Source of the DNA: Magnetococcales bacterium
GTDB taxonomy: Bacteria > Pseudomonadota > Magnetococcia > Magnetococcales > JADFZT01
Direction of reading: 5' to 3'
Assembly: GCA_015232395.1 (NCBI GenBank)
Contig: JADFZT010000009.1
Coordinates: 1 to 64,000, forward strand
DNA length: 64,000 nucleotides
Shown: in pieces, positions 5,736 to 59,750 of the stretch
How the letters are laid out: each line of letters begins with the position of its first letter
Position numbering within the stretch: position 1 is the first letter of the stretch
Position numbers and translations under genes: made by a program
The notes under the pieces: model-generated
Told to the model about the DNA's origin: nothing
Database searches by the model: none
What the model saw: only the letters and a program-made list of their open reading frames with translations

Positions 5736-7703
5736 TCAGAGCTGGGAAAGGCCGTTTTGATCAGCCAACGTCCCAGTGGAGAGAGGGGCGTGGAAAGGAG
5801 GGGATGGCGGGACCATGGAGAGGTGCTGATTTTGGGGTGGAAGCTCCTTTTGCAGGTTGACTCCGGCTTTGCGCAACTTTTGTTGAACCTGGGCCATGGA
5901 GAGAACATAGGCATCGGAACGGCCCAGCTGTTTTTCGACAATCGGTAGATGTTCTGCAGCATTTTCTTCACTGGGGTACCAGCCGAGATAGACTAAAAAC
6001 TGGTCGTTCCTGTATGGCAACAAATGCGTCGAATTATGGCCAAATTCCTGATCTGCTTCGTGAATCACATTATTGATATGCTCTATATAATTATGATTAA
6101 CAACCATTAACTGTATGGAATACCCTTTATTTTTGGTCAGAGAGAGCCATTGTTGGGAAGTTTGCAGGCGTTGTTGCACGAGTGGATATTTGTCCAAGGA
6201 AGTGGCTTGTCCGCTCTTGGCGGGTTGCCTGGGCGAATTTACAGGGAAGGGAGAGGTAACCTTTTCAGCTGTGTTGAAAACGGCCTCTTCTTCCAGGGCA
6301 CTTTCTTGATCACCCGTTGCGGCTTGCGAGGGGGTGTTCTTGCCCGGTTTTTCTTTGGAAATGGGGAGCACTGAGGGGGAAATCGGCATCTGTTGGTTTG
6401 GTTTGGCAGGTGCCGGGGCCGCTATATTTTGAGCAGACGATTTGGAAGCCTTTTTTTTCCCGGTCGTTTTGGTATGGGTGGCGGCCTTGCTTGAGGCTGC
6501 TGGGGCCGACTTTGGCGTAGGCTTGTGTCGGGGCAGGTAGCGGCGTTGAGAAGGGGGGGGCACGACGGCCTGAACCACTCTGGCCGGATCCAGGAGCATG
6601 ACGGCAGATGGGCTTTCCTGGGGCGCTTCAGCCTCACTCTGAACGACGGTTTCTTCAACAGGTTGCGCTGGCGGTTCCGAGACTTTTCCCGGGCTTTTTT
6701 GGGTAAGAGCGGCCACCTCTTCCAGTTTCAGGCTCTGTTCGGGAATGGATTGAACCTGGGAGGAGGGGGGAATCACGGGTTTTCTGGAGAGATAGGATTG
6801 TCCCACCTGAGCTGCAACCAACAGCGTGAGGAGTGCTACGGTAGAGAGATAAGCCCAGCGGGGCGGGGGCCAAAAATAACGTTTGTTCCGGATGGGGTTG
6901 GTTATGTTTTTAATACCCTGACGCACTTGATCGGGTGTTACCTGGGGCTTGCCATTCCGATAACTCGCCAGGAGCGCCTCATGGGCCAGCAAGTTGACAC
7001 GGCGCAGGGAGCTTTCAGCCTGCTTGGCAATTTCCCGAGCGGCGGCAGAGGTAAACAGGGGCGTACCCCGATGATAGCCAGCCCGGGTGGCGCGGGTGGT
7101 GAGATAGCGTTCGATATCTTCGGCTTTAGGCTTGGCCAGATAGTAGTGACCGCCGATCCGATCCCAGAGCTGGCGCATGTCGTGGGCCCCCACTACCTCT
7201 TCCAGCTCCGGTTGGCCAAAGAGCACCACCTGCAGCAATTTTTGGCGGTGGGTTTCCAGGTTACATAAAAGACGCAGCTGCTCCAGGGTCTCCAGGGGCA
7301 TGGCCTGGGCCTCTTCCACCAGCACCAGAACGGTTTTACCCTTACCGTGAGCCACGACCAGATGATCCCGGATGCAGTTCATACACTGCCAGGGGTCCAG
7401 ATCTTCCGGCATCTTCAGCTTTAGATCTTCGGCAATGGAGCGGATCAGGTTTTCGGGGGTGAGGCGGGGTTGGAACAGGAAGACCAGGTCCACTGTTTTG
7501 GGTAGCTTGCTGGCAAGCATTCGGCAGAGCATGGTCTTGCCACTGCCCACCTCGCCAACCACCTTGAGGATGCCAACTCCCCGGAAAATACCGGAAATCA
7601 GCGATTCCAAAATAGCGGCACGTCCTCCGACATCGTCAAAGAGCCGAATATCGGGGGTGTTGTTGAAGGGATAATGTTCAAAGCCAAAATGGGACAGATA
7701 CAT
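5736..7703 (-). CDS. mshM: ExeA/MshM-family AAA ATPase with C-terminal SPOR-like domain
   Basis: The protein has 655 residues. The first 260 or so match the ExeA/MshM ATPase family: it opens with FGFEHYPFNNTPD, has Walker A GEVGSGKT at residues 50-57 and Walker B VLVLVEEAQ at 125-133. A membrane segment lies at about 284-302, followed by a long Pro/Ala/Ser/Lys linker. A C-terminal domain at about 525-610 (YSIQLMVV, then FLVYLGWYPSEENA) resembles a SPOR peptidoglycan-binding domain of the DamX type. ExeA-type proteins bind peptidoglycan and help secretins cross the wall, so this one probably helps seat the MshL secretin. It is the last gene of the pilus block, 127 bp after the ABC ATPase gene and separated from it by a 9 bp perfect dyad. 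The fusion makes it much longer than the usual MshM (about 280 residues). Confidence 0.85.
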   Translation of the reverse strand: MYLSHFGFEHYPFNNTPDIRLFDDVGGRAAILESLISGIFRGVGILKVVGEVGSGKTMLCRMLASKLPKTVDLVFLFQPRLTPENLIRSIAEDLKLKMPEDLDPWQCMNCIRDHLVVAHGKGKTVLVLVEEAQAMPLETLEQLRLLCNLETHRQKLLQVVLFGQPELEEVVGAHDMRQLWDRIGGHYYLAKPKAEDIERYLTTRATRAGYHRGTPLFTSAAAREIAKQAESSLRRVNLLAHEALLASYRNGKPQVTPDQVRQGIKNITNPIRNKRYFWPPPRWAYLSTVALLTLLVAAQVGQSYLSRKPVIPPSSQVQSIPEQSLKLEEVAALTQKSPGKVSEPPAQPVEETVVQSEAEAPQESPSAVMLLDPARVVQAVVPPPSQRRYLPRHKPTPKSAPAASSKAATHTKTTGKKKASKSSAQNIAAPAPAKPNQQMPISPSVLPISKEKPGKNTPSQAATGDQESALEEEAVFNTAEKVTSPFPVNSPRQPAKSGQATSLDKYPLVQQRLQTSQQWLSLTKNKGYSIQLMVVNHNYIEHINNVIHEADQEFGHNSTHLLPYRNDQFLVYLGWYPSEENAAEHLPIVEKQLGRSDAYVLSMAQVQQKLRKAGVNLQKELPPQNQHLSMVPPSPPFHAPLSTGTLADQNGLSQL

Positions 7704-7775
7704 GGTGTTCCCTGTATTTTTAAATCAACGGATACTTGGGAGCGGGAAAGCCTGGGCCTAAAGGTATCCCGGGTA

Positions 7776-7807
7776 GTGACCAGGATGCAATTACCGTACC
7801 TGGTCAC
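7776..7807. promoter_or_regulatory. Perfect 9 bp inverted repeat between ABC ATPase and mshM-like genes
   Basis: GTGACCAGG and CCTGGTCAC are separated by 14 bases. No T-run follows on either strand, so it is not a typical intrinsic terminator. It could be an operator or an mRNA-processing hairpin. It sits about 75 bp upstream of the mshM-like start. Confidence 0.45.
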
Positions 7808-7830
7808 AGGGGGGAAGGAAAGATGGGAAT

Positions 7831-8559
7831 TCAGGCTTTTTGGGTGGATTGGATACAGTGGATGAAGGATTGCTCCATGGTCTCCCCGGGATAAAGCTCC
7901 CGGCACTCCTGATGGGTACCCAAAAAACGCAGGTGGTTATCGTGGAGGATGGCCATACGATCACAGAGTTCTTCCACGTCGGCCAGCAGGTGGGTGGAAA
8001 AAAAGAGGGTATGTCCTTGGGCTTTCATGGCCATGAGGCGTCGTTTCAGAAGAACCCGGGCCTTGGGGTCGAGACCGCTCATGGGTTCATCCAGCAGCAG
8101 CAGCTCCTTGCCACTTAAAAAACAGGCTGCCAGCCCCAGCTTTTGGGTCATGCCCTTGGAAAAAGCCCGCACCGGTCGATCCAATGCCGCCAGGGGCAGA
8201 TCCAGGGATTCGAACAGTTCGACCGATTTATCTTCCTGGTAGGGCACTTCGTGGAGGCGACACATGAAGGTGAGAAAGTCCCGGCCCTTGAAAAAATAGG
8301 GAGGCACAAATCGTTCTGGCAGATAAGCCAGGCGCTTGCGGGCTTGGGGCAGCTTGTGGGAGAGGCCAAAAATATCGATTTCCCCCCCATCCATCTCCAT
8401 AAAATCCAGCAATCCCTTGATCAGAGTCGTTTTACCCACTCCGTTGGCACCCACCAGGGCAAAGGATTCGCCGGGTTTGATGCTGAACTCTACCCCAGAT
8501 AGAACCCGCTGTTTACCAAAGGATTTTTCCACTCCCTGAAAGGTCAAGGCGTCGGTCAC
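7831..8559 (-). CDS. ABC transporter ATP-binding protein of the pilus locus
   Basis: This is an ABC-type ATPase of about 242 residues that would energise an ABC-2 export permease. It has Walker A GANGVGKT, a signature-like FSKGMTQK, Walker B LLLLDEPMSGLDP and an H-loop FFSTHL. The GTG at 8559 is preferred because a GAGG lies about 10 bases upstream and the product then begins with the usual ABC fold. The ATG at 8610 overlaps the terminator of the preceding pilin gene. The matching permease is most likely the ABC-2 protein encoded at 10727-11497, since no other permease is in the locus. In Myxococcus xanthus the PilG/PilH/PilI ABC system is needed for type IV pilus assembly, so a similar accessory role is plausible here. 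This is an inference from context. Confidence 0.85.
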   Translation of the reverse strand: MTDALTFQGVEKSFGKQRVLSGVEFSIKPGESFALVGANGVGKTTLIKGLLDFMEMDGGEIDIFGLSHKLPQARKRLAYLPERFVPPYFFKGRDFLTFMCRLHEVPYQEDKSVELFESLDLPLAALDRPVRAFSKGMTQKLGLAACFLSGKELLLLDEPMSGLDPKARVLLKRRLMAMKAQGHTLFFSTHLLADVEELCDRMAILHDNHLRFLGTHQECRELYPGETMEQSFIHCIQSTQKA

Positions 8560-8604
8560 TTGGAAAACCTCAAAAAAAAGGGACCCGGAAATAAATAGGG
8601 ACCC

Positions 8605-8649
8605 GGACAAAACAAAGGGTGACTACGCTCAAAACGTAGCCACCCTTTG
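8605..8649 (-). terminator. Rho-independent terminator after the large prepilin gene
   Basis: On the minus strand a long stem (CAAAGGGTG/CACCCTTTG extended by CTACG/CGTAG, with one mismatch) closes a short TTTTGAG loop and is followed by TTTTG. It begins about 50 bp past the prepilin stop codon. Confidence 0.8.
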
Positions 8650-8698
8650 ATCGATTCAGCACCGAACGGATTCGGATTTTGCGTCCTCTTCCCAGAAA

Positions 8699-9634
8699 CT
8701 AGAAGAGATGCACAGCGCCGCAGTTGTCATACTGGCTCAACACATCGTAGTGGTCGACGTCGTTGGTAGAGTCTTTAGCTGGACCTCGGGGTGGGCCTGG
8801 AGGCCCGGCAGAACCAGCACTGACAGCACCGGATGCCACACACTCAGACCCGGTGTCGGCTTCGGAACCGAGAGTTTGGTTACCACCTTCCGTATCTGTC
8901 GCGTAGCGGTCACCGATGCGGAAAGAGCCGGTTGTGGGGGCGGCATCGTCCATTTTCCGATCCATTTCGGAGAGCACGCTCACGGGAACCAGGTTACCCG
9001 CGATCAGCTGGTGGGAGCGGGCGTCCATCGATCCATCACCGGTGAAGGTCGGGAGGGTTTCAGCAGCCGCTTCGTCATAGGGGGTGTAGGCTTCGTCGGT
9101 GTAGGCGAAGAAGAGGGGTCCACCGTAGACATTGGTCATGCAGGATTGAACCCCACACTCCCAGGTGTCTTCGTTGATGCTCAGGTTGTCGACGGAGTCG
9201 TCCGCAGCGGAGACATAGCTGCCGGTGACAAATCCGGAAGAGGCCAGATGCTTCCATACCAGAGCCAGTTCCGCTTCACGATCATCGGAAGTGGAGTCGC
9301 CAGCCAGCATGGGGTCACCACCTACGCGGCCATTGCCGTCACCGTCGTCACTGGAGGACGGGGTGGGGTTGTCGCCGGTATCAGCGACGGTGCCGTCAAT
9401 GTTGTCCGTTGCTTGACTGAAGTCACCAGGCAGCGCCATGAAGCGATCCTGGAAGCCCAGGATGGCGGCTTTTACAGCGCTGCCCTGGTCGATCAGGTTA
9501 TGGACTCGGGCGTTTTTGATCATCTCCTGCCCTTTGAGTACACCGCCAAGCAGAAGTCCGATGATCACCACTACGATGGCAATTTCGATAAGGGTAAACC
9601 CTGCTTCCTGTTTCGATCTATTCAAGTCTTTCAT
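8699..9634 (-). CDS. Large type IV prepilin, probably the main subunit of the locus
   Basis: A 311-residue prepilin. A 12-residue leader ends in Gly, followed by FTLIEIAIVVVIIGLLLGGVL, the classic class III signal cleaved and N-methylated by prepilin peptidase, with Glu at mature position 5. The globular part is large and rich in Asp, Gly and Ser, with several Cys including one near the C-terminus that could form the D-loop disulfide. A strong ribosome site (GGAGGAGG) lies about 10 bases before the ATG. The gene has a terminator behind it (8605-8649), and another terminator (9876-9904) insulates it from the upstream genes. It therefore looks like a separately and strongly transcribed pilin. 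Its size, nearly twice that of a usual MshA, is odd; a minor pilin role cannot be excluded. Confidence 0.85.
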   Translation of the reverse strand: MKDLNRSKQEAGFTLIEIAIVVVIIGLLLGGVLKGQEMIKNARVHNLIDQGSAVKAAILGFQDRFMALPGDFSQATDNIDGTVADTGDNPTPSSSDDGDGNGRVGGDPMLAGDSTSDDREAELALVWKHLASSGFVTGSYVSAADDSVDNLSINEDTWECGVQSCMTNVYGGPLFFAYTDEAYTPYDEAAAETLPTFTGDGSMDARSHQLIAGNLVPVSVLSEMDRKMDDAAPTTGSFRIGDRYATDTEGGNQTLGSEADTGSECVASGAVSAGSAGPPGPPRGPAKDSTNDVDHYDVLSQYDNCGAVHLF

Positions 9635-9952
9635 TGCTAAACTTCCTCCTCCGAGAGATGCTTCCGGGTCATTTTTATGCGGAATGCTGTGTATTTGTCA
9701 CTCAAATTTGTTAATGCATACAAGCTCCATGTGTCTCTATTTGCAACTGGGTGTGGCAGAGAGATAGACCGCGTATCCGAGCCTGATTTGAAGAGTAGGC
9801 GGGCGCTGTTTGTTATCCCCATCTTATTTCAACATATTTTACCAACTATTTCCAAAAAAAAATGATTAATGGCAGAAAAAAAACAGGCTGGTGAGAGCGA
9901 GCCTCTGCCGTACTTTTTAATGTGGAGGTCTGATACAATATTAGAGACAAAT
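9635..9952 (-). promoter_or_regulatory. Intergenic region carrying the pilin promoter
   Basis: No gene is seen here. It contains the terminator of the upstream TPR-like gene at 9876-9904 and must hold the promoter for the prepilin at 9634. An imperfect sigma-54-like TGCCAC...TTGCA lies on the minus strand at about 9748-9764, but the spacing is one base too long, so it is not called. Confidence 0.5.
9876..9904 (-). terminator. Rho-independent terminator after the TPR-like gene
   Basis: On the minus strand AGGCT pairs with AGCCT across a 10-base loop and is followed by a T8 run (A8 at 9876-9883 on plus). An outer GGCAG/CTGCC pair extends it. It lies about 50 bp after the stop at 9953. Confidence 0.75.
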
Positions 9953-10666
9953 TTACTCCCTTTGTTCCAGCCTTTTTTCCAGATCCAGGAGTCGCTGGTT
10001 TAAAAAATGGATCTCCTTGGGGCTGGTGATCCGACCGCTGGTGAGAAGTCCCCCTATGAGCATTTGGGCGCTTTCCAGCTCCCCCATTTTTTCCAGAATT
10101 ACCCAATCCAGTTGCCGAGCCCATTCCGGTACCTGGGAACCGGTGGCATGTTGACTGACGGCCCGGGCATAGCGCAGCGCCAGTGGCAGATCATTCAGCT
10201 GGTGGCGGGCAACAATAACAGCGTGGGCCAGCCATGGCCAGCGACGCTGGGGATCGTCCAAAAAACGATCATAAACATACTCCAACATGACCCTTTTCTT
10301 TTCAGGGATATTCACCTCCCCATAGAGTCTGCTGGCACTCATGAAAGGATACTGTCCTTTCGGATCCAGCGCAATAATTTGGTCCAGCCACAACATGGTA
10401 CGCTGGTAGTCGAGCTGGTGAAAGGAGATACTCACGCCGGACTGATAATCAAATGCCTGCAACCAGAGCATCAAGGCCTTGGCCAGGGTGATCGGCTCCC
10501 CCAGTGACGCCAATTGCAGGTAGGCGGAGGAGGGGGGGACTGGCAGATCTTCGGCCTTGGCTTCCGGGAGAGGTTGCAGGCTTTGCCAAAATATTTGTAC
10601 GGCAAGCCCCAGAACCAGCAGCAGAAAAACCGAACTTGGCACTCTATTCAGTGAGCGTACCTGCAT
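9953..10666 (-). CDS. Membrane-anchored TPR-like protein of the pilus locus
   Basis: The product has 237 residues. One N-terminal membrane segment (VFLLLVLGLAVQIFW) is followed by a helical domain whose pattern (YQRTMLWLDQIIALDP, ALRYARAVSQHA) resembles tetratricopeptide repeats. It ends in a charged, coiled-coil-like tail. It lies 60 bp downstream of the ABC permease gene and ends at a terminator, so it closes the main pilus operon. A role as a partner of the adjacent ABC permease or as a pilus assembly scaffold is possible. MshF of Vibrio occupies a similar small membrane-protein slot but has no clear sequence similarity here. The family was not recognised. Confidence 0.7.
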   Translation of the reverse strand: MQVRSLNRVPSSVFLLLVLGLAVQIFWQSLQPLPEAKAEDLPVPPSSAYLQLASLGEPITLAKALMLWLQAFDYQSGVSISFHQLDYQRTMLWLDQIIALDPKGQYPFMSASRLYGEVNIPEKKRVMLEYVYDRFLDDPQRRWPWLAHAVIVARHQLNDLPLALRYARAVSQHATGSQVPEWARQLDWVILEKMGELESAQMLIGGLLTSGRITSPKEIHFLNQRLLDLEKRLEQRE

Positions 10667-10726
10667 CGACTTTCAGCTCCCTTGATAAGGTTCCTCCCTT
10701 TATGTCGGTTTATCTGGTGCAATTCT

Positions 10727-11497
10727 TTAAATGTTTTTTCGATAAAGATCAAAAAGGGCCGCCCCACACAGCAGGGCCAGATAAATCACGGTTTGCCCAA
10801 AGATATGTTGTATTTCCAACCAGCTGCCAGTGCCATATACCAACCATTCGGTCTGAGTGAAACGATCCAATCCCGGTAAAACCAGGGCGATGGCGCCAAT
10901 CATTTCATTCATAAACTGCATCCAGAGGCTGTTCGAGCCCATGATGGGGCCTTGGCCGACCTGTTGCAGACTGGTGATGGATCTGCTGAGCAGATAAATC
11001 GCCAAAACAGCGCTGAAGGCTGGGGTGACCTGATTGAAAGTCAGCAGCGTCAACAGACACAAGGCGATGACGATCAATAGTTCGGCCAGCAGGGAAATCC
11101 CCCAAAAGAGCACCATCTCCCCAGCCGAATAGGGTAGCAAGGCTGCTGAAAAGAGAGTGACCATGGTCAGAACGGTAAAAGTATAGCCGATCAGCTTGCC
11201 AAAAAAATAGCTGCCTCGGGGGATGGGCAGGGAGAGGATCAACTCAAGCCCCTTGTCATTCAACTCCCGAACCAGACTGTTGAGCACTACCAGGGAGGTC
11301 AATATCACCGCACCCAGACGCAGGTAGGCTCCCAAAATGGCACTCTGAATCTCTTTTACCTCGGTGAGCGCCAGGGTGCCGGCAAATTCCGCCAGCATGA
11401 AGCCTCCAAGCACCACCACCGTCACGATCCATAAAAAGCGGTTTTTCCACCCCTCCAGAGCGGTATAACGAGCCAGGGTCCAGACCGATCCGATCAC
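10727..11497 (-). CDS. ABC-2 type permease of the pilus locus
   Basis: A 256-residue integral membrane protein with about six hydrophobic segments and the ABC-2 pattern (a cytoplasmic start, LVRELNDKGLELILSLPI, then YFFGKLIGY in the coupling region). The start is a GTG that overlaps the stop of the preceding pseudopilin gene (GTGA), so the two are translationally coupled. It probably pairs with the ATPase at 7831-8559. Its location between a pseudopilin gene and the TPR-like gene argues that it works in pilus biogenesis rather than in unrelated export. The substrate is unknown. Confidence 0.8.
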   Translation of the reverse strand: MIGSVWTLARYTALEGWKNRFLWIVTVVVLGGFMLAEFAGTLALTEVKEIQSAILGAYLRLGAVILTSLVVLNSLVRELNDKGLELILSLPIPRGSYFFGKLIGYTFTVLTMVTLFSAALLPYSAGEMVLFWGISLLAELLIVIALCLLTLLTFNQVTPAFSAVLAIYLLSRSITSLQQVGQGPIMGSNSLWMQFMNEMIGAIALVLPGLDRFTQTEWLVYGTGSWLEIQHIFGQTVIYLALLCGAALFDLYRKNI

Positions 11498-12393
11498 GGC
11501 AGCTTACCCACATCCACCAGCTGTTTTTTCAGGGCGCTGGCTGAGATCCACATCACCATGTCGTCAAACTCATGACCCTGGACATTGCTGAAAACCCGGT
11601 CGATGAAAACGTTGTCGTCATCATTCTCGATATCGTTTTCCACCTCATCGGATTTCCGACCACCAGGCAACGAACCCACTCTGACTGGTTGAGCCCCTTG
11701 GGAAATGACAATTACCGGAACGTTGGCGGCCAGGAGTCCTTCCACATCTTCAAAAATGTCGGAATCATCACAGGCTCCGGCATCGTTACAGGCCTCCTCG
11801 CTTTCCCAAATCTGGATGTCGCCATTGCAGAAGGGTCCATCCCCCCCTGTGATATCGACAGGTATGATACCAGTGGCCAAAGAGATGGTGGATTGTGAGG
11901 GAGGGGAGTCGCAGTTGACAGAGGTCATGGTCGGGGATTTTGCCGTGTCTTCCCCTATCTCATCTGCAAATTCACCGGTGACCTGATAAATAAAATTCCG
12001 ACCCCAGGCATCTACTCCTGTGACACCCAAGTCCAGATAAGGAAGATCGCCGTTGACTTCAAGAGAAAACACTCCGCTGATACCGTCATAGACGCCACAG
12101 CGGATTTTGTTGGGGGTCACGTTGGCTGTGTCATCCTGATCGCGGTTTTCATAGCCATCGGCATCGGTATCCGGACAGGGGAGGCGACCGTTGGCCAGGA
12201 AAAAGCCGAAAAGAGCATCCCGAATCTCTTCCATGGTGCGTTCGGTGCGGGAGCGGTAGACATTTTCCATCTGGGTGCCCATGGGCGTGAGGGCCATCCC
12301 CACCATCAGGCTGAGAATCACCAGCACCACCGCCACTTCAATGAGGGTGACCCCGCTCATGGATGTCATGCGTTGTTTGTCAAAAGTATCCAT
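11494..12393 (-). CDS. Large pseudopilin / minor prepilin (MshO/MshP-like position)
   Basis: A 299-residue prepilin. After a 14-residue leader ending in Gly comes VTLIEVAVVLVILSLMVG, the cleaved hydrophobic helix with Glu5. The body contains GRLPCPDTDADG, a Cys plus Asp-rich motif also found in the neighbouring pseudopilin, and several more Asp/Glu runs that could bind calcium. The ATG at 12393 follows GGAGG by about 6 bases. The open frame extends upstream only because of the 73 bp duplication at the gene junction. It is translationally coupled to the ABC permease downstream. It would be incorporated as a minor pilin or tip subunit. Confidence 0.8.
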   Translation of the reverse strand: MDTFDKQRMTSMSGVTLIEVAVVLVILSLMVGMALTPMGTQMENVYRSRTERTMEEIRDALFGFFLANGRLPCPDTDADGYENRDQDDTANVTPNKIRCGVYDGISGVFSLEVNGDLPYLDLGVTGVDAWGRNFIYQVTGEFADEIGEDTAKSPTMTSVNCDSPPSQSTISLATGIIPVDITGGDGPFCNGDIQIWESEEACNDAGACDDSDIFEDVEGLLAANVPVIVISQGAQPVRVGSLPGGRKSDEVENDIENDDDNVFIDRVFSNVQGHEFDDMVMWISASALKKQLVDVGKLP

Positions 12394-12536
12394 CAGGGTT
12401 CCTCCCGGTTTATCGGGTCTATTCTCCAGGGCAGAATTCAGCTTCGGTGGCATCATCGGTTCCCATCAGGGTTCCTCCCGGTTTATCGGGTCTATTCTCC
12501 AGGGCAGAATTCAGCTTCGGTGGCATCATCGGTTCC
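12391..12536. repeat. Perfect 73 bp tandem duplication at a gene junction
   Basis: Positions 12391-12463 and 12464-12536 are identical. The unit contains the last codons and stop of the upstream pseudopilin gene, its spacer, the GGAGG ribosome site and the start codon of the downstream one. As a result an extra ATG with its own ribosome site at 12466 opens a 15-codon frame, MGTDDATEAEFCPGE, before the real start at 12393. Confidence 0.9.
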
Positions 12537-13814
12537 ATCCAAACAGGCCACCCGGTCGTTGAAAGTGTCAGTGAAAATTTTGGTAAAATCAAAGTTTAAC
12601 GTCGTTGAAGCGGTCAGATTGTTATCCTCAAGATAGTTTTCGATTACTATCGTAGCCCCCAGCACTGAACGATCCTGTTCAGGGCTGGTATCGTCTAGTT
12701 CTTCCCCAGCCAATATCACTACAGCCTGGTAATCGGTTGAGCCGCTATTAATCTTCAGACAATTCATTCCACAACCGGTGACAGCAGTGCCGGGATCAAA
12801 TCCTGCTGTTAATTGAAAAAACAGGAGATCCTGCCAAGCATTATCGTGGATCCATCCCCCCGATAAGAGATCCGTGCACTCCGATCGTGTTGCCCAGCCA
12901 CTATCCATAGCCGGGGAGTCAGGTGTCGCCGCAGCACAGTCGGCAACGTCATCCACATTGAGGGTATCCAGAGGCAGACGGCCGAAATAGGTTCCACAAA
13001 CGCCATTATTATCCCCATTGGCAACCGGGGCTGCCCAGGGATATTTCCCACTATTATCCGCAGCAAATTGGGCCAGGCACACCTTGGCGGATTTTAAAAC
13101 CCGTTTTTCCACCGCTGTCAGGATTTCATCCCGGCTGATGGTGAGCCAGAGGTCGTTGAACTCCTCCTCGGCCTCCAACGGATAGGTAACAGCGCCCTCA
13201 ATCGTGTCACCGACTGAAATATATTCCAGATAGTTGGACCAATCCAATAGGTCGTCATCCGTCACCCGGAATTGATCAAGCTCTGCCACTCCAGCACCGG
13301 GAGAAAAGATGACCGCAACGATATCCTCCCCCATATCATCCGCTTCTGTACTGCTGTTAATCGTCGGTTCGCTCAAGGAAAATTCCATGGCGAGGGCGTA
13401 CCAGACAACCTCACCTTGGACATCTTTTACATCCCGCTCGTTGAGCCCCAGATCTTCCCAGGGTAGGCGCCCAACGTAGAGGGTAGGACCGGTATCAGTC
13501 GCACAAACACTGCCATTGTTGTCACCATATCCCGGGCCATCGGCATCCTGGTCAAAATCCAGATCCGGGCAGGGCAGCTCCCCTGGCCGGGTGTCGTTGG
13601 TGGCCGCATAGATAATCAGCGCCTCCTTGACCTTTTTCAAAACTTCCAGGGAGACCTTGTTGCGGTTCCAGCGAAGGGATTCGGTGGGGAGCGTGTGGAG
13701 GACGAGGGCAGTGCCCGCCATGGTCATGATGATCATCAGCATGAGGAGCGCTACCCCTTGCTGGGATCGAAAATCTTTCCCAGGGGGGAGGCTGGGGCCG
13801 GGTGCTGAGGCCAT
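12492..13814 (-). CDS. Very large pseudopilin / PilX-MshP-like minor pilin
   Basis: From the ATG at 13814, which follows GAAGGAG, the product has about 440 residues. An earlier ATG at 13916 is possible but has no better site. Near the N-terminus QQGVALLMLMIIMTMAGTA is a pilin-like helix of the PilX/MshP kind, with Gly before the hydrophobic part but no Glu at position 5. The body has two copies of a domain with Asp-rich loops and Cys: GELPCPDLDFDQDADG with GRLPWEDLGL, and later GTYFGRLPLDTLNVDD. It is far longer than usual pseudopilins (150-200 residues). It lies about 290 bp after the MshK-like gene and its 3' end is inside the 73 bp duplication. The two-domain body suggests a tip adhesin-like minor pilin; this is inference. 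Confidence 0.7.
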   Translation of the reverse strand: MASAPGPSLPPGKDFRSQQGVALLMLMIIMTMAGTALVLHTLPTESLRWNRNKVSLEVLKKVKEALIIYAATNDTRPGELPCPDLDFDQDADGPGYGDNNGSVCATDTGPTLYVGRLPWEDLGLNERDVKDVQGEVVWYALAMEFSLSEPTINSSTEADDMGEDIVAVIFSPGAGVAELDQFRVTDDDLLDWSNYLEYISVGDTIEGAVTYPLEAEEEFNDLWLTISRDEILTAVEKRVLKSAKVCLAQFAADNSGKYPWAAPVANGDNNGVCGTYFGRLPLDTLNVDDVADCAAATPDSPAMDSGWATRSECTDLLSGGWIHDNAWQDLLFFQLTAGFDPGTAVTGCGMNCLKINSGSTDYQAVVILAGEELDDTSPEQDRSVLGATIVIENYLEDNNLTASTTLNFDFTKIFTDTFNDRVACLDGTDDATEAEFCPGE

Positions 13815-14104
13815 GCTCACTCCTTCGTTGTCGACACGATCCGCCATACGGTTCAGTTTAACATACTCCTGCCAGGGCTCGTTGATAAAAAATGACCGGT
13901 TACTCCCCTCAAGCAAGCCCCTCCATCCACTTCCTGAATCTTGACCAAATCGGCAGCCGCTTGATAACGCTCACCTGAAAAACAGTTGGGTTTAACACCC
14001 CCAAGGCAGACCAAATGGATGACAAAAAAAAGATGCGTCCAGTGGTCCCTGATTCAGCTGTTAAAAAGGTGTATCAGCCCATTCCATCAAGCCTACCCTG
14101 CAGT

Positions 14105-14779
14105 TCAGGGCGTTTTTTGCATTCCTTGCAGCAGTTTATTGATCTGTTCGATCCCCTTGTGATCAGCAACAATCCCCTGCAAGAGCTTTTCATCGGGATT
14201 CATGGGAGATTTGAGGCGATTATTAGACTCTTGCTGGGCAGTCAATTCAGCCTGGAGGCGTCGCTGCTGCAAGAGATTTTCCTTGTAGACCTGATAGGTC
14301 TCCAGCACCGAGCCACTGATACGATCCATCGCCTGCCCCGGCTTCAGACGCACCTTGGCGACGGCATCCGGCAGGTCCAGCCAAACCCGTGAATCCCATT
14401 GATTCTTTTTGGAAAGGCTCAACCAGTCGGAAGCCTTTTTATCGGCCAGCTTGTATTCCTCGCCATTGATCCAAACCGTGGGTTGGGAACCCTCCATCCA
14501 GAAAAGTCCGTCAAAGGAGACCAGCCCCCGGCTGTCACTCTCCTCGTTGCTGGTCACGGACTGCCCGGATTGCACCATACGCCGGGTAAAGTCAAGACGG
14601 GAGCGCTCCCCCGGAGTGGTGAAAAAGCGCCTGAGTTCCAGGGTTTCAGCTTGCGCCTGGAGGGGGAAGAGGGATGCCAGGAAAAATCCTGCCAGGAACA
14701 ATCCCATCCGTCCCGCCATGGAGAGTCCGGTCGAGGGAGGCAGAGTAGACCCGTTATTCCAGAATGAAGGCGCACTCAT
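14105..14779 (-). CDS. mshK: MshK-like periplasmic pilus biogenesis protein
   Basis: The start at 14779 overlaps the mshJ stop (ATGA) and gives 224 residues. The N-terminus has a hydrophobic stretch ending in LFPLQAQA that fits a signal peptide. The next part contains VSFDGLFWMEGSQPTVWINGEEYKL in two overlapping pieces, the pattern of the small PilP/GspC-like or MshK domain that reads 'the product is, its use is'. A coiled-coil-like, Gln/Glu-rich helix follows at the C-terminus. The assignment rests mainly on position after MshI and MshJ. MshK of Vibrio is about 100 residues, so this version is extended by a helical tail. Confidence 0.6.
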   Translation of the reverse strand: MSAPSFWNNGSTLPPSTGLSMAGRMGLFLAGFFLASLFPLQAQAETLELRRFFTTPGERSRLDFTRRMVQSGQSVTSNEESDSRGLVSFDGLFWMEGSQPTVWINGEEYKLADKKASDWLSLSKKNQWDSRVWLDLPDAVAKVRLKPGQAMDRISGSVLETYQVYKENLLQQRRLQAELTAQQESNNRLKSPMNPDEKLLQGIVADHKGIEQINKLLQGMQKTP

Positions 14780-15390
14780 GAGATTTGACCTTCTTTGGAA
14801 AGCTTGATGAAAAACCAGCGCAAACGGCACTGTCCCGAAATGTTGGATTCGGTGGAGTCAGGTTGAATCTGTGACCTTAAGCGCGTCAAACTGCAAAGCT
14901 CCCCGGTAAAAAGCCCCTTGGCCCGTTTTTCCAAAATACCCAGCAGCCCGAAAAGATCCGCCTCGTGAAGCAGGTCCATGGAGAGTTCCATGGTGTTGGA
15001 TGTCAACTCAACCGTATCCAGCTCTGCGTCGAAAGTGGGCTGATAGGGGCTGGTGTCAGAAATCGAATAGGTAATATGTTCGACTCCCAGGCGTTCTGCT
15101 TCGTTCCGTAATATTTTAACCAGCTCGGAACGCTTGTCCGCCCCCAAAAGCCCCTGTTTTTCATAAGCCGTGTAACGGGGTTGATAGAGATGAAGACTTT
15201 TGGTGTCTTCCTTGGCGCGAGCCAGTCTGTTTTTGATGTCGCCAGACCTTTTCTTGGCCACGCGAGCCATTTTTTTTTGGTCTTTTTCGAATGACTGAGC
15301 ATACCAGACAAAACCGCCTGAGGCGGCCAGGGAGAGAATCAAAACCACGATTCCACCCGTCAACATTTTAAAATCAAGGATTCTGGCCAT
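14776..15390 (-). CDS. mshJ: MshJ, PilO-like inner-membrane pilus protein
   Basis: A 204-residue bitopic protein. One N-terminal membrane segment (GGIVVLILSLAASGGFVWY) is followed by a coiled coil (about residues 35-70) and a ferredoxin-like periplasmic domain, the layout of PilO, GspM and MshJ. These proteins form the inner-membrane alignment complex between the platform and the secretin. It overlaps the end of mshI by 17 bp and its own stop overlaps the next start, so it is tightly coupled within the operon. Confidence 0.75.
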   Translation of the reverse strand: MARILDFKMLTGGIVVLILSLAASGGFVWYAQSFEKDQKKMARVAKKRSGDIKNRLARAKEDTKSLHLYQPRYTAYEKQGLLGADKRSELVKILRNEAERLGVEHITYSISDTSPYQPTFDAELDTVELTSNTMELSMDLLHEADLFGLLGILEKRAKGLFTGELCSLTRLRSQIQPDSTESNISGQCRLRWFFIKLSKEGQIS

Positions 15391-16975
15391 CCCTCTTCCT
15401 CTTAAAGCCCAGTTTCAAGGAAAAATTCATATCCACTGGCTCTTCCTTGGGGGTTTCCAGAAGGTCGCCGGCCCATTTTTTGGACTGTACCGCCTTGCTT
15501 GGATTTTTGACCACAGTAGCTTGGGCCACGGTTTTGGATTCCAAAAGAGCGTTGACAAAGCGGTTGACTCGCTCTTCAGCCAATCGGTAGTCGTTACCGA
15601 CCCCAAACACGCGACCTGAGAGATTTGCCATCTCCAACAGTTCCGGCATTTTTTGAGCTGATTTTTTGGATCGACCACGACTTCGCTTGCGCTTGCGGGA
15701 ATTGGAGCTGCTTTTTTTGGTGCTTGCTCCCTCTCCAACCCCCGTCCAATCAAATTTATTGATTTGCAGCTCCGGGAACCGGGAAAGATGGGTGCTGATG
15801 GCCGACATCATCTGCAGGGGAGAGCTGTGTTGTTGCTGCAGCTCCTCCACCAATAATGCTACCTGTCGGATGTGGGCTGGATCCACCTTTTGTTCAACAA
15901 ATTTGTCGATCAATCTTTTGTAGGTGGCCTGATCATCACTCGTCTTGTTTGTATACATCCGAGATTGCTCTTGGTAAGCCAAGCCCCTGGAGGAAATCTG
16001 GAATCCCCAGGTGGTGGCACTCAGAACCACAAGCAGACTGGCGGCAAAAAGAGCCTGGCGCACGCGACGTGTCAGAAAATAGCGACGCATCCGGGGGTTG
16101 GCATAGTGGTTTTGACCCGCCCCCTTGCCCAACAATTGAATAAACAGAGAGTCACTGAAGGGGGTCTTGATGTCCCGGTCGATACCCAGTCGCCTGGCCA
16201 CTTCACCCACCGGCAACAGACGAAAATCCTCTCCCTCCCGTTCATCGCAATAGGGCTGAAAGGCTTCCAGAAAGGGGGTGCTGGATAGAATGACCGTCAC
16301 CAGAGGCTGTCCGTGGGTCATCAAACCCATGCGGGAGAGATAGGTTCGGGTTCTCTCCAGCTCCTGGGTGAGCAGGGCGGCGTAAGCGCCAGGTTCGTTA
16401 TCCGGAACCCGGGCCATCCGGCTCATCATCAGCCGCTTGCCCTTGAAATAGGAAAAACGTAGCCCCGTACCACTCTGCTGACTCACCAGAAGAGTTCCCT
16501 CCGGGACACGGCCCAAAAGGGAGGAGAGGAAGGCCCGACTCAGCATGGGCAGGGAGTGAATGCCTGCCAGGGAGGCTTTTTTGCTTTGAATGATCCCAAG
16601 CCACTCGTTGAGCACTTCCGGAGCGGTGACCGCAGCCAGCAATACCTTGGAATCCTTGCGACCTTCCTTATCCCGTCCGACGACACTACCGCTTCTGAAA
16701 GGGGTCTCCGGATAGGCGCGGCGCAACCGGCGCTGGAGAATGTTGCCCCGCTCCGGACCCAGCACAAAGGGGATGTTTTCTACCCGGAACTCTTCCTCGA
16801 TCAGATCCGTGAGAATGTGGATATGGTGTGCCGGGTTTTTTTCCAGATAGGTGGCAAATGCTTCCCGCCCTTCTTCGTTGGCATCAAAACGGGAGACACC
16901 AGCGACTTTCCCCCCCTTCCAATCGAAGGCGGTTAGGCGCTCTTTTGTCATGAAAAACAGTCGCTTGCGGGCCAT
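15374..16975 (-). CDS. mshI: MshI, PilM/PilN-like pilus assembly protein
   Basis: The product has 533 residues. A cytoplasmic N-terminal part of about 300 residues has the actin-like PilM/GspL pattern (FDWKGGKV near the start, GTLLVSQQSGTGLRFSYFKG). A membrane segment follows (ALFAASLLVVLSATTWGF), then a periplasmic PilN-like part with a coiled coil and a very basic Ser/Lys/Arg insert. This fused PilM-PilN layout is typical of MshI. The start overlaps the mshG stop (TGATG). It would anchor the alignment complex and link it to MshE. Confidence 0.8.
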   Translation of the reverse strand: MARKRLFFMTKERLTAFDWKGGKVAGVSRFDANEEGREAFATYLEKNPAHHIHILTDLIEEEFRVENIPFVLGPERGNILQRRLRRAYPETPFRSGSVVGRDKEGRKDSKVLLAAVTAPEVLNEWLGIIQSKKASLAGIHSLPMLSRAFLSSLLGRVPEGTLLVSQQSGTGLRFSYFKGKRLMMSRMARVPDNEPGAYAALLTQELERTRTYLSRMGLMTHGQPLVTVILSSTPFLEAFQPYCDEREGEDFRLLPVGEVARRLGIDRDIKTPFSDSLFIQLLGKGAGQNHYANPRMRRYFLTRRVRQALFAASLLVVLSATTWGFQISSRGLAYQEQSRMYTNKTSDDQATYKRLIDKFVEQKVDPAHIRQVALLVEELQQQHSSPLQMMSAISTHLSRFPELQINKFDWTGVGEGASTKKSSSNSRKRKRSRGRSKKSAQKMPELLEMANLSGRVFGVGNDYRLAEERVNRFVNALLESKTVAQATVVKNPSKAVQSKKWAGDLLETPKEEPVDMNFSLKLGFKRKRDGQNP

Positions 16976-18177
16976 CAGTACCTCATGTTCTGCATGATGT
17001 CGTAAATGGGGCCCAGAACCGAAACCACCACCCAGATCATCAAGATGCCTACAAAGGCGGTGAGTCCCGGTTCAATCATACCCTGCAACCGATCCACAGC
17101 CTCCCGCACATCCCGGTCATAGAAATAACGAACGTTTTTCAGACTGGTATCCAGTGCCCCGGTTCGTTCGCCCACGGAAATCATTCGTACCACGAGCCTG
17201 GGAAAGATCAACGCCTTTTCAAAACTGCCAGCGATATCTTCACCGCCCCGAACACGTTCACCGATCTCTTCGAGTACCCGTTCCATGCGCTGATTTCCAG
17301 CGACCCGACGGCCAATGGCCAGACAGTCCAGAACGCTGATGCCCGAGGCGTAAAGTAGACCGAAAATATTGGCAAAACGTGCCAGAATCAACTTGTTGAG
17401 AATGGGTCCGAAGATCCACACCCGAAGCTTGAAGCCATCGTAGGACTCCAAAAACCGGGAGCTGATACGCTTAAGCACCTGAATCAGCATCACGATGCCA
17501 ATGGGTATCCCCAGAAGATAGGCCCAGTAGGCCACCACAAAATCCGAGGTTTTCATCAGCGCGATGGAGTAGATGGGCAGCTCAAAATCCATGATTTTCA
17601 TGAAGGAGACCAGTTGGGGCACCAAAAAGGTCATCATGAAAAAGAACACCCCCACCATCACTGTACCCATGATGGATGGATAGAGCATCAGCTTTTTGGT
17701 GCGGGCGGCCATCTCGTCCTGCCACTTCAGATCTTCGGTCAGATTGGCAAAAATTTCGCCCAGGTTGCCCGAGCTTTCTCCCGCTCGTACCAGGGAGATA
17801 AACACCTCATCGAACACTTTCGGGTAGGACTCCATCGCCTGGGTGAGGGTTTTGCCGCCGCCAATCTCATCCAGCATGCCGTTCAACAAAACCTGTAGCT
17901 GGCGACTACCCGCATCCCGCAGATCCGAAAGACCCTCAATGATGGGGACACCGGCGATCACCATCTGCTCCATGTGAAAGCAAAAGGTGATCATCTCCCG
18001 CCGATCCAGCTTTTTGGCGCCCCACTTGGCTGTAGAGGATTTGATCTCTTTCAGCTGGATCACATCCATCTGCATCCGGGCCAAACGACCTTCGGCATCG
18101 GCTTCGTTATCCGCTTCCATCTGGTCGCGGATAAGTTTTCCGTCGAGATCCATCGCTTTGAAGCGAAAGGTGGGCAT
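16975..18177 (-). CDS. mshG: MshG, type II secretion F / PilC platform protein
   Basis: A 400-residue inner-membrane platform protein with two T2SSF domains. It begins PTFRFKAMDLDGK, has the first T2SSF repeat with FCFHMEQMVIAGVPI and three membrane segments overall (VMVGVFFFMMTFLVPQLV, AYLLGIPIGIVMLIQVL and one at the C-terminal end). The second repeat has RFANIFGLLYASGISVLD and VGERTGALDTSL. It works with MshE to polymerise and depolymerise the pilus. It sits 73 bp after mshE, the normal gene order. Confidence 0.9.
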   Translation of the reverse strand: MPTFRFKAMDLDGKLIRDQMEADNEADAEGRLARMQMDVIQLKEIKSSTAKWGAKKLDRREMITFCFHMEQMVIAGVPIIEGLSDLRDAGSRQLQVLLNGMLDEIGGGKTLTQAMESYPKVFDEVFISLVRAGESSGNLGEIFANLTEDLKWQDEMAARTKKLMLYPSIMGTVMVGVFFFMMTFLVPQLVSFMKIMDFELPIYSIALMKTSDFVVAYWAYLLGIPIGIVMLIQVLKRISSRFLESYDGFKLRVWIFGPILNKLILARFANIFGLLYASGISVLDCLAIGRRVAGNQRMERVLEEIGERVRGGEDIAGSFEKALIFPRLVVRMISVGERTGALDTSLKNVRYFYDRDVREAVDRLQGMIEPGLTAFVGILMIWVVVSVLGPIYDIMQNMRY

Positions 18178-18250
18178 TCAAACCTCTGATACGTGGTCTT
18201 GATAATAATCGAAGCGCTTGGACCCCATCGGTCTTCAAGCAGGCTTCGGG

Positions 18251-19984
18251 TTAAAATCCTTCAGTCAAATCCGCTACCCGGCTGATTTCCGCCAGGGTGG
18301 TGATCCCTTCGAGAACTCGGTGAATTCCCCGCACTGCCAAGGGTTTGAAACCTATTTTTTTGGCGTGGGCACGTAATTCATGGTAAGGGGCATTGGTGGC
18401 GATCAGGGCGTCCATTTCAGGATCAATCTTGATGGTTTCAATCAAGGCCATGCGCCCTTTGTACCCCGTGCCTTCACACGCTTTACACCCCACATGACGA
18501 TAGATGGGGCCTTTGGCGACCACGCCCAGGGAGCGCAAGAGACGAACCTCTACCCCTCCTGGATTATACGCCTTGCGGCAGCTTTTGCAGAGCAGACGGA
18601 TCAGCCGTTGTCCTACCACACCGATAATGTTGCCCGCCAAAATATCTGACGGCACCCCAATATCTCGAAGACGGGTAATGGCCTGCATGGCGGAGTTGGT
18701 GTGTACCGTTGAGTAGACCTGATGACCGGTCATGGCTGCCCGAAGGGCCATTTCTGCGGTTTCCTGGTCACGAATTTCACCCACCAGCATAATATCCGGA
18801 TCCTGGCGCAGCATGGCCCGAATACCATCGGCAAAGCCCATTTTACTGGAGGGATTGACCGAGGATTGGCGAATCTGGGGCATGGGATATTCGACCGGAT
18901 CCTCCAGGGTCATGATGTTGACCGATACGTCGTTGATAAAATCAAGCATCGAGTAAAGAGTGGTGGTCTTACCCGAGCCGGTGGGGCCGGTAACCAGGAT
19001 GATCCCTTCGGGTCGGGCCATCATCAGCTTCAAGGCCGACACCTGTTCATCACTGAAACCCAGAGAGGTCAAGGGCACGATCCCCTTGGTTCGATCCAGG
19101 ATCCGGAGTACCAGGTTTTCCCCATGGTGGGTAGCCATGCTGGAGACGCGAAAGTCGATGTTACGGCCAAAGAGCTGCCGGGAGATGTGACCGTCCTGAG
19201 GGACGCGGTTTTCGGCGATATTGAGCCCAGCCAGCACCTTGACGCGCACAATGATCGGTGATTGATACTGTTTGTGCAGGGAAAGAACCTGACGCAACAC
19301 CCCGTCAACCCGCAGCCGGACACTCAAAAAGGTCTCTTCCGGCTCGATATGGATATCCGAAGCCCCTTTTTTGACAGCGTCTGCCATCAGGGCATCCACC
19401 AGTCGCACCAGGGGTTGGCTGTACTCTTCGGCATCTGTGGTGGCTTCAGGGTCCACCTCCCCGGACTCGATCTCCCGGAGAATACCGTCGATGGAAAATT
19501 CAAAGCCAAAATATTGGCTGATGGCGTTGTCGATTTCTGCAGCACCACCCAGCTTGACCTGGATATCGACATCTTCCCCGAGCAACGACCGCAGCTTGTC
19601 CAGAGCCACCACATCGTAGGTGTTGGACATGGCCACGGTCAGGCGTTTGGTCTCGGATTCGTAGGAGACCGGGAACATGTTGGCGCGCTTGGCAAAATCC
19701 TTGGGGATCAGCTTGATCGCTTCCCCATCGACCATGATGGTGGTCAGATCCACCGACTCCTGGCCGATGGATTCTCCCAGGAGATCCCGCATGGAACCTT
19801 CAGTGAGAAATCCAAGCTTGACCAGAATCTGCCCCAGGGGAGCGTTCTGTTTTTTCTGTTCTGTGAGGGCAATGCGCAGCTGGTCCTGGGTGAGAACACC
19901 CTTTTGGACCAGGAGTTCCCCCAACATCACCTTGGGTTTTTCTTTGCCTTTGGTCGCCGCTTGACCTTTTGATGGGCCTGCCAT
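18251..19984 (-). CDS. mshE: MshE, pilus extension ATPase of the GspE/PilB family
   Basis: The start at 19984 is one base after the stop of the preceding gene and follows GGGAG; it gives 577 residues. The N-terminus has two copies of an MshEN-type motif (MLGELLVQKGVLTQDQL and PLGQILVKLGFLTEGSM). The ATPase core has Walker A GPTGSGKT, an Asp box LEDPVEYP, Walker B LVGEIRDQETAEMA, a His box STVHTNS, and a four-Cys zinc site (CKSC then CKAC). MshEN domains in Vibrio and Pseudomonas ATPases bind cyclic di-GMP through two such motifs, each starting with Arg-Leu-Gly. Here the Arg is replaced by Met and Pro, so regulation by cyclic di-GMP is uncertain. Confidence 0.92.
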   Translation of the reverse strand: MAGPSKGQAATKGKEKPKVMLGELLVQKGVLTQDQLRIALTEQKKQNAPLGQILVKLGFLTEGSMRDLLGESIGQESVDLTTIMVDGEAIKLIPKDFAKRANMFPVSYESETKRLTVAMSNTYDVVALDKLRSLLGEDVDIQVKLGGAAEIDNAISQYFGFEFSIDGILREIESGEVDPEATTDAEEYSQPLVRLVDALMADAVKKGASDIHIEPEETFLSVRLRVDGVLRQVLSLHKQYQSPIIVRVKVLAGLNIAENRVPQDGHISRQLFGRNIDFRVSSMATHHGENLVLRILDRTKGIVPLTSLGFSDEQVSALKLMMARPEGIILVTGPTGSGKTTTLYSMLDFINDVSVNIMTLEDPVEYPMPQIRQSSVNPSSKMGFADGIRAMLRQDPDIMLVGEIRDQETAEMALRAAMTGHQVYSTVHTNSAMQAITRLRDIGVPSDILAGNIIGVVGQRLIRLLCKSCRKAYNPGGVEVRLLRSLGVVAKGPIYRHVGCKACEGTGYKGRMALIETIKIDPEMDALIATNAPYHELRAHAKKIGFKPLAVRGIHRVLEGITTLAEISRVADLTEGF

Positions 19985-19985
19985 G

Positions 19986-22283: not shown

Positions 22284-22402
22284 GGATCAAATTCTCCGCC
22301 CCCCTTGACCCACCAATCGGGAATCCCCAACGGTTGGATCAAGGTTAAATATGGGCCTGCCGGTCACGGAACAGGGGCTGCGAGGGATCATGCTCATCCC
22401 TC

Positions 22403-24217
22403 TTACGGATTGCCGGTTTGGGTCGCTGGGCTCTCCATGCTTTTCCAGTCGCCAATGTTGATTGAAGGAAAAGTCACGGGATGTTCCCGGGTTTCAGTGA
22501 ATTTGTCGAGCAGCCCGTCAAAAACCTTGACCTGTCTCTTTCCACCAGAGGGGGTAGTCACGGTCGGCCTTAAAAAGATGGCCATTTCGGTTTTTTGCAC
22601 GGAGCGTTTATCGTAGCTGAACAGTTCACCCAGAACCGGAAGGTCTCCCAAAATGGGTACATTGCTGTTGTCTTCACTGACTTCGTCGTTCATCAGACCA
22701 CCCATGATGATCATTTGATTGTCAGCTACTCGCAGGATGGTCTCCATCTCCCGAACCTGAATTTCCGGAACCTGGTAGTCCACATCCACGCCATCCACGG
22801 TTGGCGCATCTGCATAACCAAGCAGGCGGGTGAGGGAGGGACGGATGTCCAGGGTGATGATATCGTTGGCGCTGATCTGAGGCATGACGATCATCACCAG
22901 CCCTACGGGAACGGTATTGCTTTCGATGGTGGTGGTCTTGGTGGTTACGTTGGTCTCATCATTTGTTTCTTCTTCAATTTCAACATTGAAGTAGACTCTT
23001 TGGTCGACAATTTTGAGGACCGCTGCCTGGTTGTTCAGCGCCATGATCTTGGGACTTGAGAGAACCCGAACATCGCCGAATTGTTCCAAAGCCTTCAGTT
23101 CGGCCTCAATAAAGTGGCCACCAGCAGTGGATGCGGTGTAGACCAGGGAAAAGACCGGGTCACTGGTCAAGTTGCCCCCCATCATGCCTGAGCTGACAGT
23201 GGTGCCGGTATTGCCGTCCATCACCCGTTGCCAATCCACACCCGTCTCAAAATCCCGGGAAAGGGTGACTTCAACCACCGTGGCTTCGATCAACACCTGT
23301 TTTTGGGCGCTGCCCACGACCTGATGGACAAAGGCTTCGACTTTTTCGTGTTGTTTTTCAGAACAATAAACGGATATGACGCCACTGGCCTCATGGGCGA
23401 TGACCGGGGAAAATTGGGAGATCACCTCCACCCGTGTTTGTTCTTCTTTGGTTTCGGTGGAGGCTTTTTTCGTGGAATCTGTCTCGCCAGTTTTATAGGT
23501 CATGGCGCCTGCTGTTGTTTCAGGCAGCACGACCGGTTCGATCAATTTGGCAAGGGACTGGGAGCGGGTTTCCAGCCACTCCCGCATGTTTTCCTCTACT
23601 TCAATGATATTTTCAATACCCTCAATCAGCGGCTCCCAAAAATCATTGCTCATGGTGTTGGTGATGGTGCCCCTGGAGTTGCCCCCCGTATCACCGCTGT
23701 CCCCGATATCCCCTTCGACACTGATGGTAGAAGTAGCCGTACGGGTCAGATTGAGATAGTCGATCTGATAGGTGCGCCAAAAGGGCAGGTCGGGCAGGAT
23801 CATCAGGTTGTTGCCAGACAGCTCGTAGCGTAGGTCCACTTGATTGGAGATGCGTTCGAGAATTTGTGGCAGGGTCTGTTCCAGGGCGTTCAGGGTGACA
23901 TCGCCATCAATGGCCGGGTGGATATCCACATTGATGTGGGCATCCCGGGCCAGAGTGAAGAGCAGCTCCCGAACCGGTACATTATGCACCACCACCGTGT
24001 AGCGCTCCGGCCCACTTTCCAGTTGAGGCGGCGGCAGGATGGGGGTCACGGCCACATGGGCAGGGGGTTGGGTGCCAGCTTCCTTGACGGTAGTGCTGGA
24101 CTTGAGATGATGCTCCGACGGTGTGGTATGCGGGGCGGAAGGGATTTGCTGACAGGCAGCGACAGTCAATCCCAGAACAAGAAACAAGACGAAACGGCTC
24201 ATTTTTTTTCGCCCCAT
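22403..24217 (-). CDS. mshL: MshL, outer-membrane secretin of the MSHA-type pilus
   Basis: A secretin of about 604 residues. A lipoprotein signal ends in LTVAAC, so it should be lipidated and outer-membrane located. An N-terminal secretin/STN domain follows (YTVVVHNVPVRELLFTLARD). The C-terminal secretin domain has the VEATVVEVTLSRDFETGVDW pattern, then VRVLSSPKIMALNNQAAVLK and VPILGDLPVLGELF. The ATG at 24217 was chosen because a purine-rich GGAAGGG lies upstream; the ATG at 24202 is also good. It is the first gene of the cluster. Confidence 0.9.
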   Translation of the reverse strand: MGRKKMSRFVLFLVLGLTVAACQQIPSAPHTTPSEHHLKSSTTVKEAGTQPPAHVAVTPILPPPQLESGPERYTVVVHNVPVRELLFTLARDAHINVDIHPAIDGDVTLNALEQTLPQILERISNQVDLRYELSGNNLMILPDLPFWRTYQIDYLNLTRTATSTISVEGDIGDSGDTGGNSRGTITNTMSNDFWEPLIEGIENIIEVEENMREWLETRSQSLAKLIEPVVLPETTAGAMTYKTGETDSTKKASTETKEEQTRVEVISQFSPVIAHEASGVISVYCSEKQHEKVEAFVHQVVGSAQKQVLIEATVVEVTLSRDFETGVDWQRVMDGNTGTTVSSGMMGGNLTSDPVFSLVYTASTAGGHFIEAELKALEQFGDVRVLSSPKIMALNNQAAVLKIVDQRVYFNVEIEEETNDETNVTTKTTTIESNTVPVGLVMIVMPQISANDIITLDIRPSLTRLLGYADAPTVDGVDVDYQVPEIQVREMETILRVADNQMIIMGGLMNDEVSEDNSNVPILGDLPVLGELFSYDKRSVQKTEMAIFLRPTVTTPSGGKRQVKVFDGLLDKFTETREHPVTFPSINIGDWKSMESPATQTGNP

Positions 24218-27196: not shown

Positions 27197-27300
27197 TTGT
27201 CCATCCTCCCTGCTGTTCGGTTGCGTGCAACCTTTGCCCCTGGTACCCCGGGCCTCTTGACCAACCCGGTGAATCCCGATCAATCCGGTGAGTTCGCCCA

Positions 27301-28947: not shown

Positions 28948-28978
28948 CAGCCATTTCTTTCAAGAGGTCGATATCCCA

Positions 28979-30250: not shown

Positions 30251-30307
30251 GGCCTCTAATCGGCTGTAAGGGGGGAGTGGATGAGTCGTTTTCCCTTAAA
30301 AGTCCGC

Positions 30308-32629: not shown

Positions 32630-32677
32630 AATGGGCATCCTGCGTTGGAGGCGTGAGGGGTGGAGTGGGGCGGCTCT

Positions 32678-58352: not shown

Positions 58353-59750
<1,398 letters not shown>

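Follow-up and report, generated by a model that had tools for sequence, protein, structure and literature searches.

The window, a 64,000-nucleotide stretch of a 4.94-Mb genome, harbors a pilus locus on its minus strand at positions 5736-24238. In the direction of transcription, genes for a secretin, a TPR protein, MshE with its MshEN domain, MshG, and the proteins in the MshI, MshJ and MshK positions come first, followed by genes for two prepilin-like proteins, an ABC-2 permease, a 237-aa protein, a large prepilin, an ABC ATPase, and an MshM-like AAA protein. The features are listed below with the matches on which the assignments are based.

22403-24238, minus strand: MshL-like secretin (PF00263, 1.9e-40; Aeromonas MshL, 5.5e-71)
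19986-22283, minus strand: MshN-like TPR protein (TPR matches; Aeromonas MshN, 3.4e-07)
18251-20086, minus strand: MshE assembly ATPase with MshEN domain (PF00437, 1.1e-124; PF05157, 6.3e-12; Aeromonas MshE, 4.3e-155)
16975-18177, minus strand: MshG platform protein (PF00482, 4.4e-47; Aeromonas MshG, 3.3e-81)
15374-16975, minus strand: 533-aa protein in the MshI (PilM/PilN) position (synteny)
14776-15390, minus strand: 204-aa protein in the MshJ/PilO position (synteny)
14105-14830, minus strand: 241-aa protein in the MshK position (synteny)
12492-13916, minus strand: prepilin-like protein, 474 aa (homologues at the same place in relatives; no Pfam match)
11494-12456, minus strand: prepilin-like protein upstream of the permease (GspG/N-methyl matches)
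10727-11497, minus strand: ABC-2 permease, PilI-like (GTG start; ABC-2 Pfam matches weak but coherent)
9953-10666, minus strand: PilG-like subunit, 237 aa (one N-terminal membrane helix at 11-30 followed by an all-helical TPR-like solenoid)
8699-9634, minus strand: large prepilin, 311 aa, signal GFTLIE (PF07963, 4.6e-06)
8613-8649, minus strand: terminator-like hairpin of 17 pairs between the large prepilin and ATPase genes
7831-8559, minus strand: ABC ATPase, putatively PilH-like (PF00005, 3.8e-21; Walker A motif GANGVGKTT and Walker B motif LLLLDEP)
5736-7703, minus strand: MshM-like AAA ATPase of the ExeA type (PF13401, 8.1e-24; Aeromonas protein at the MshM position, 1.5e-81)

The MSHA locus of Aeromonas caviae was used as a yardstick and compared with the family profiles of this analysis. 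The core set of the MSHA (MSH) pilus is present in the window and common to both loci, namely MshE with the MshEN domain, MshG, the MshL secretin, the MshM AAA ATPase, and the MshN TPR protein. In contrast, nothing matching the permease, the 237-aa protein, the ATPase, or PilG, PilH and PilI was found in the Aeromonas caviae locus by profile search, in agreement with an earlier note on this DNA, which had stated that standard MSHA loci carry no ABC system. The window locus has its own large prepilin set and an ABC module, whereas the Aeromonas locus (mshI-mshQ) is devoid of the latter. Moreover, the gammaproteobacterial mshI-mshQ order is not kept, since the MshM-like gene is placed at the far end, after the prepilins and the ATPase; the locus is therefore termed 'MSHA-type' and not 'the MSHA locus'. 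In gene content it resembles MSHA loci, the ABC genes being an addition relative to the Aeromonas caviae locus.

The earlier note had described an ABC transporter pair at 7831-11497. Permease and ATPase both stood up to analysis, but the third gene between the permease and the large prepilin (9953-10666) had been overlooked. The coupling described for the permease was likewise found, its GTG start at 11497 and the stop of the prepilin gene upstream sharing 4 nt (...ccGTGAtcgg...). This overlap is not conserved: among 39 distinct permease loci, 14 have a prepilin as the upstream neighbor. The most conserved neighbor of the permease is the gene directly downstream, which belongs to the 237-aa (PilG-like) family in 31 of the 39 loci, and the next gene after the PilG-like one encodes a prepilin of the large-prepilin family in 22 of 39.

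The best Pfam match of the permease is PF12679 (5.8e-06, just under the cut-off of that family). Profile-profile comparison with PilI, the permease of the PilGHI module known from Myxococcus, run after removing the sequences common to both sets, yielded a probability of 99.5% (E 2.3e-22, 251 columns). As a control, membrane ORFs in the vicinity of the other ABC ATPases encoded in that genome were scored and reached at most 33, while all 40 PilI sequences scored above 37. According to these profile comparisons, the permease is homologous to PilI. The permease family has one copy in its own genome, in which 13 matches to secretion-type ATPases, ten of them strong, were detected; the module therefore goes with the window pilus and not with every such machine.

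Further details were noted around these genes. No sigma-54 site was found upstream of the prepilin within the window at up to one mismatch. Between 12395 and 12500, a leader of approximately 36 nt (gagaatagacccgataaaccgggaggaaccctgatgg), including a ribosome-binding site and an ATG, occurs twice, ahead of the prepilin gene 11494-12456 or at its start, and the second ATG may be where this gene truly begins. A stretch similar to the leader precedes the PilG-like gene, near 10715-10690.

The 237-aa protein matched no family in Pfam or NCBIfam. Its AlphaFold2 model (pLDDT 92.7) features one membrane helix (residues 11-30) and an all-helical solenoid, which is presumably periplasmic. The best Foldseek matches of this model in the PDB were TPR proteins, none of them below E 0.001, and comparison with PDB sequences gave weak TPR matches. 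To follow up the Myxococcus lead, PilA of M. xanthus (checked against PDB 8tj2) was used to retrieve loci from Myxococcota and Desulfobacterota, many of which contain pilA-pilG-pilH-pilI. Profile-profile comparison of the 237-aa family with PilG (31 vs. 41 sequences) resulted in a probability of 98.2% and an E value of 3.8e-14 over 207 columns, i.e., almost end to end. Smaller PilG sets gave E values of 3.9e-09 (10 sequences) and 3.8e-10 (19 sequences), with alignments of 200-213 columns; identity in the first alignment was very low (16%). For the 19-sequence PilG profile, the real score of 75.5 compares with at most 20.8 for 60 column-shuffled profiles and 15.3 for the reversed profile. Fifteen other families compared with the 237-aa profile reached E 0.01 at best, and a profile of other TPR proteins reached E 0.1. 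Furthermore, the 237-aa family profile directly matches several PilG proteins of other Pseudomonadota (best 1.9e-11), and the PilG profile matches one member of the 237-aa family at 5.4e-08 in a search of 4711 ORFs.

The predicted folds of the 237-aa protein and PilG are alike as well, both having a single membrane helix and then some ten helices of similar order and length. The PilG model has an additional C-terminal part after the helices, which is absent from the 237-aa protein. Since this segment is also short in two PilG proteins of Desulfobacteraceae (L117 and L119), it is probably not a defining feature of PilG. On the basis of profiles and predicted fold, the 237-aa protein is a distant homologue of Myxococcus PilG. 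The lead given by the earlier note, which had pointed to Myxococcus PilGHI, thus proved productive, with PilI homology for the permease and PilG homology for the gene between permease and pilin. As a separate observation, the C-terminal part following the solenoid in PilG itself (10636-11610 in L112, and other PilG proteins) contains a conserved DPxGGxYxI-like motif and resembles the C-termini of GspG-type pilins; a Pfam search with this part gave no match.

The ATPase is encoded by the next gene after the large prepilin, as previously stated. Its reading frame opens at TTG 8610, but GTG 8559 is the more likely start, because the TTG sits in the tail of the hairpin (8649-8613). Owing to the position of this hairpin between the two genes, expression of the ATPase is probably lower than that of the large prepilin. 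In L073 and L100, an ATPase near the permease was at first taken as its partner and then rejected as belonging to a MacB-type exporter; the orthologue lies in the MshE operon.

In Myxococcus, pilA, pilG, pilH and pilI form a single operon (PMC3546991), and deletion of pilGHI leads to the loss of S motility (PMC5544727). According to a passage in PMC3724824, which cites Wu 1998, pilin cannot be translocated across the inner membrane without PilGHI. The module of M. xanthus (pilAGHI operon, MXAN_5783-5780) and that of the window share an ABC-2 permease, an ABC ATPase and a membrane-anchored TPR-like subunit, encoded by genes grouped around the major pilin gene; homology is detectable for PilG and PilI, with tree support for PilH. 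However, the two differ in gene order (permease-PilG-pilin-ATPase in the window, pilA-pilG-pilH-pilI in Myxococcus), and the window PilG-like protein lacks the C-terminal segment and has very low sequence identity to its counterpart. The Myxococcus module serves a type IVa pilus, whereas that of the window sits with an MSH-type pilus, whose core genes are of the MshE/G/L/M/N type and not the type IVa set (PilB/C/MNOPQ). It is therefore a variant of PilGHI, not the Myxococcus system itself.

PilGHI had long been considered specific for Myxococcus until a survey in 2018 reported pilGHI homologues beyond this genus (PMC6060248). Homologues outside Myxococcus are thus already known, and what is new here is a divergent set tied to an MSH-type pilus. 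A literature search covering mostly open-access papers found none placing a PilGHI-like module in an MSH-type locus, and an NCBIfam search gave no match for either PilG or PilI. A search with the PilG profile recovered canonical PilG from about 60 of the 398 Pseudomonadota genomes covered, the majority being members of one family with genomes of 1.2-3 Mb, plus a few of 4 Mb, and from 45 of the 148 genomes in the phylum to which a Desulfobacteraceae genome belongs. In the Pseudomonadota, canonical PilG adjoins PilH, PilI, and prepilins or PilB/PilC-like genes. Canonical PilGHI sets are neighbors of pilin genes in Myxococcota and Desulfobacterota as well as in further Pseudomonadota. A 4-Mb Pseudomonadota family (L278-L280) and a Geobacteraceae MAG (L202, PilI-PilG-PilH) have the internal order permease-PilG-ATPase found in the window. 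Unlike the window, they encode the canonical PilG type, with no gene between PilG and the ATPase; the module of L278-L280 is accompanied by a short T4aP-like pilin and neighboring PilB/PilC-like genes.

To evaluate co-occurrence among relatives, 50 genomes were examined, comprising 48 genomes of the order (that of the window included) and two other Pseudomonadota, which were included because they matched. Orthologues were called at E ≤1e-65 for the ATPase and E ≤1e-190 for MshE. The PilG-like gene was present in 32 genomes, the permease in 30, the ATPase in 27, and the MshE orthologue in 32. The PilG-like gene and the permease were both present in 30 genomes and both missing from 18 (Fisher p 1e-11); for the PilG-like gene and MshE, the corresponding numbers were 30 and 16 (p 4.2e-9), these tests ignoring relatedness. 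All four genes were found in 23 genomes and none of the four in 14, and several of the exceptions are incomplete genomes. Absence of the ABC genes from the syntenic MSHA loci of relatives had been named in the earlier note as speaking against a shared part of pilus machines. The opposite was observed: permease and PilG-like genes occur in 29-30 of the 32 MshE-positive genomes and are missing from nearly all without MshE. Together with the PilI and PilG homology, this co-occurrence supports the proposal that the transporter is shared among pilus machines.

In both genomes from outside the order, the pilus locus is split, and each part still adjoins pilus genes. MshE-MshG-MshI/J/K-like genes run straight into the ATPase in one of them, and MshG-MshI/J-like genes lead to it in the other; secretin, permease and PilG stay together at a separate place in both. 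Several permease and PilG copies are sited away from MshE. Six permease copies (L049, L050, L052, L056, L057 and L061) had no MshE in the stretch examined; a PilG-like gene was present in four of the six, and the copies in L057 and L061 adjoin two prepilin genes.

The region 7831-11497 is, with good probability, a divergent accessory ABC module of the PilGHI type that is dedicated to the MSH-type pilus. This reading is based on gene content, PilG and PilI homology, linkage to prepilins, and co-occurrence with MshE. The PilI-like permease and the PilH-like ATPase would form an inner-membrane transporter of the ABC-2 type, beside which the PilG-like protein would be anchored by its single helix, and the three may act as one complex. 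Less certainly, ATP turnover could help to bring the large prepilin into the inner membrane, or to hand it over within the membrane, whereupon it would be assembled by MshE and MshG while the TPR domain might hold the periplasmic part of the pilin. Given the homology to Myxococcus PilGHI, a step in pilin delivery or assembly is the most likely role in the window pilus. Prepilins are generally inserted by SRP/Sec, which makes a pilin-exporting ABC transporter doubtful.

Alternatively, the module may be dedicated to the pilus and yet move a substrate other than pilin, for instance a lipid-linked sugar, a lipid or a small peptide that modifies the pilus or is packed with it, the TPR subunit serving as periplasmic acceptor. 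Export of glycans, lipids or small peptides is the usual task of ABC-2 transporters, which makes this a serious rival, although it appears less likely than not. The weak match of the permease family among PDB sequences to the peptide exporter permease PmtD (E 0.03) is consistent with it, and so is the greater variability of the adjoining prepilins between genomes as compared with the transporter. The conserved neighbors of the module, scored as homologues of window genes, are nevertheless prepilins and pilus core genes, no glycosyltransferase or oligosaccharyltransferase gene having been noticed among them, and the passage in the Myxococcus literature mentioned above assigns pilin translocation to PilGHI (PMC3724824).

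It is improbable that the permease and the PilG-like protein cooperate while the ATPase behind the pilin gene serves another permease. The pilin gene and the terminator-like hairpin do separate the ATPase from the other two genes, and seven PilG-positive genomes, several of them incomplete, have no strong ATPase match. The PilH profile was of little help, as several other ATPases encoded in that genome scored higher (214 and 196 bits at best) than the window ATPase (175 bits); the profile score was dropped as a membership test for being unspecific. However, the ATPase orthologue occurs in 25 of the 32 PilG-positive genomes vs. 2 of the 18 others, and no second permease gene lies beside the ATPase within the window. 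Moreover, in a quick tree with a narrow background of ABC ATPases from one genome, a branch (SH-aLRT 97) sets the window ATPase and all PilH apart from 30 ABC ATPases of its own genome. That a general exporter came to lie in the pilus operon by chance, with no role in the pilus, is very improbable: ABC genes are common and some copies lie away from MshE, but the module co-occurs strongly with MshE across families of the order, stayed beside pilus genes in two other genomes whose locus is split, and the same module adjoins pilin genes in distant phyla.

If the PilGHI-type reading of the window is followed, a PilGHI-like helper seems to act in more than one pilus type. A broader generalization, in which PilGHI is a modular helper of type IV filament machines at large, providing an ABC-driven step in pilin delivery or processing, exchanged between T4aP and MSH systems and obligatory where present, is offered tentatively and appears doubtful rather than probable. 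With a divergent but complete set at an MSH-type pilus and canonical sets beside pilins elsewhere, PilGHI becomes open to comparative study, including the questions of which pilins need it and what replaces it in pilus systems devoid of the module.

Directly upstream of the pilus locus, the window contains chemotaxis-like and signaling genes (25208-32638), encoding an MCP, a cyclase with a receiver, a histidine kinase with a receiver, and a CheA-like protein that combines CheW, Hpt and receiver domains. Farther away, a protein with a two-partner secretion (TPS) domain (50133-52409; PF05860, 1.9e-34) and an S-layer homology domain fused with a cbb3-type cytochrome c domain (58353-59750) are encoded.
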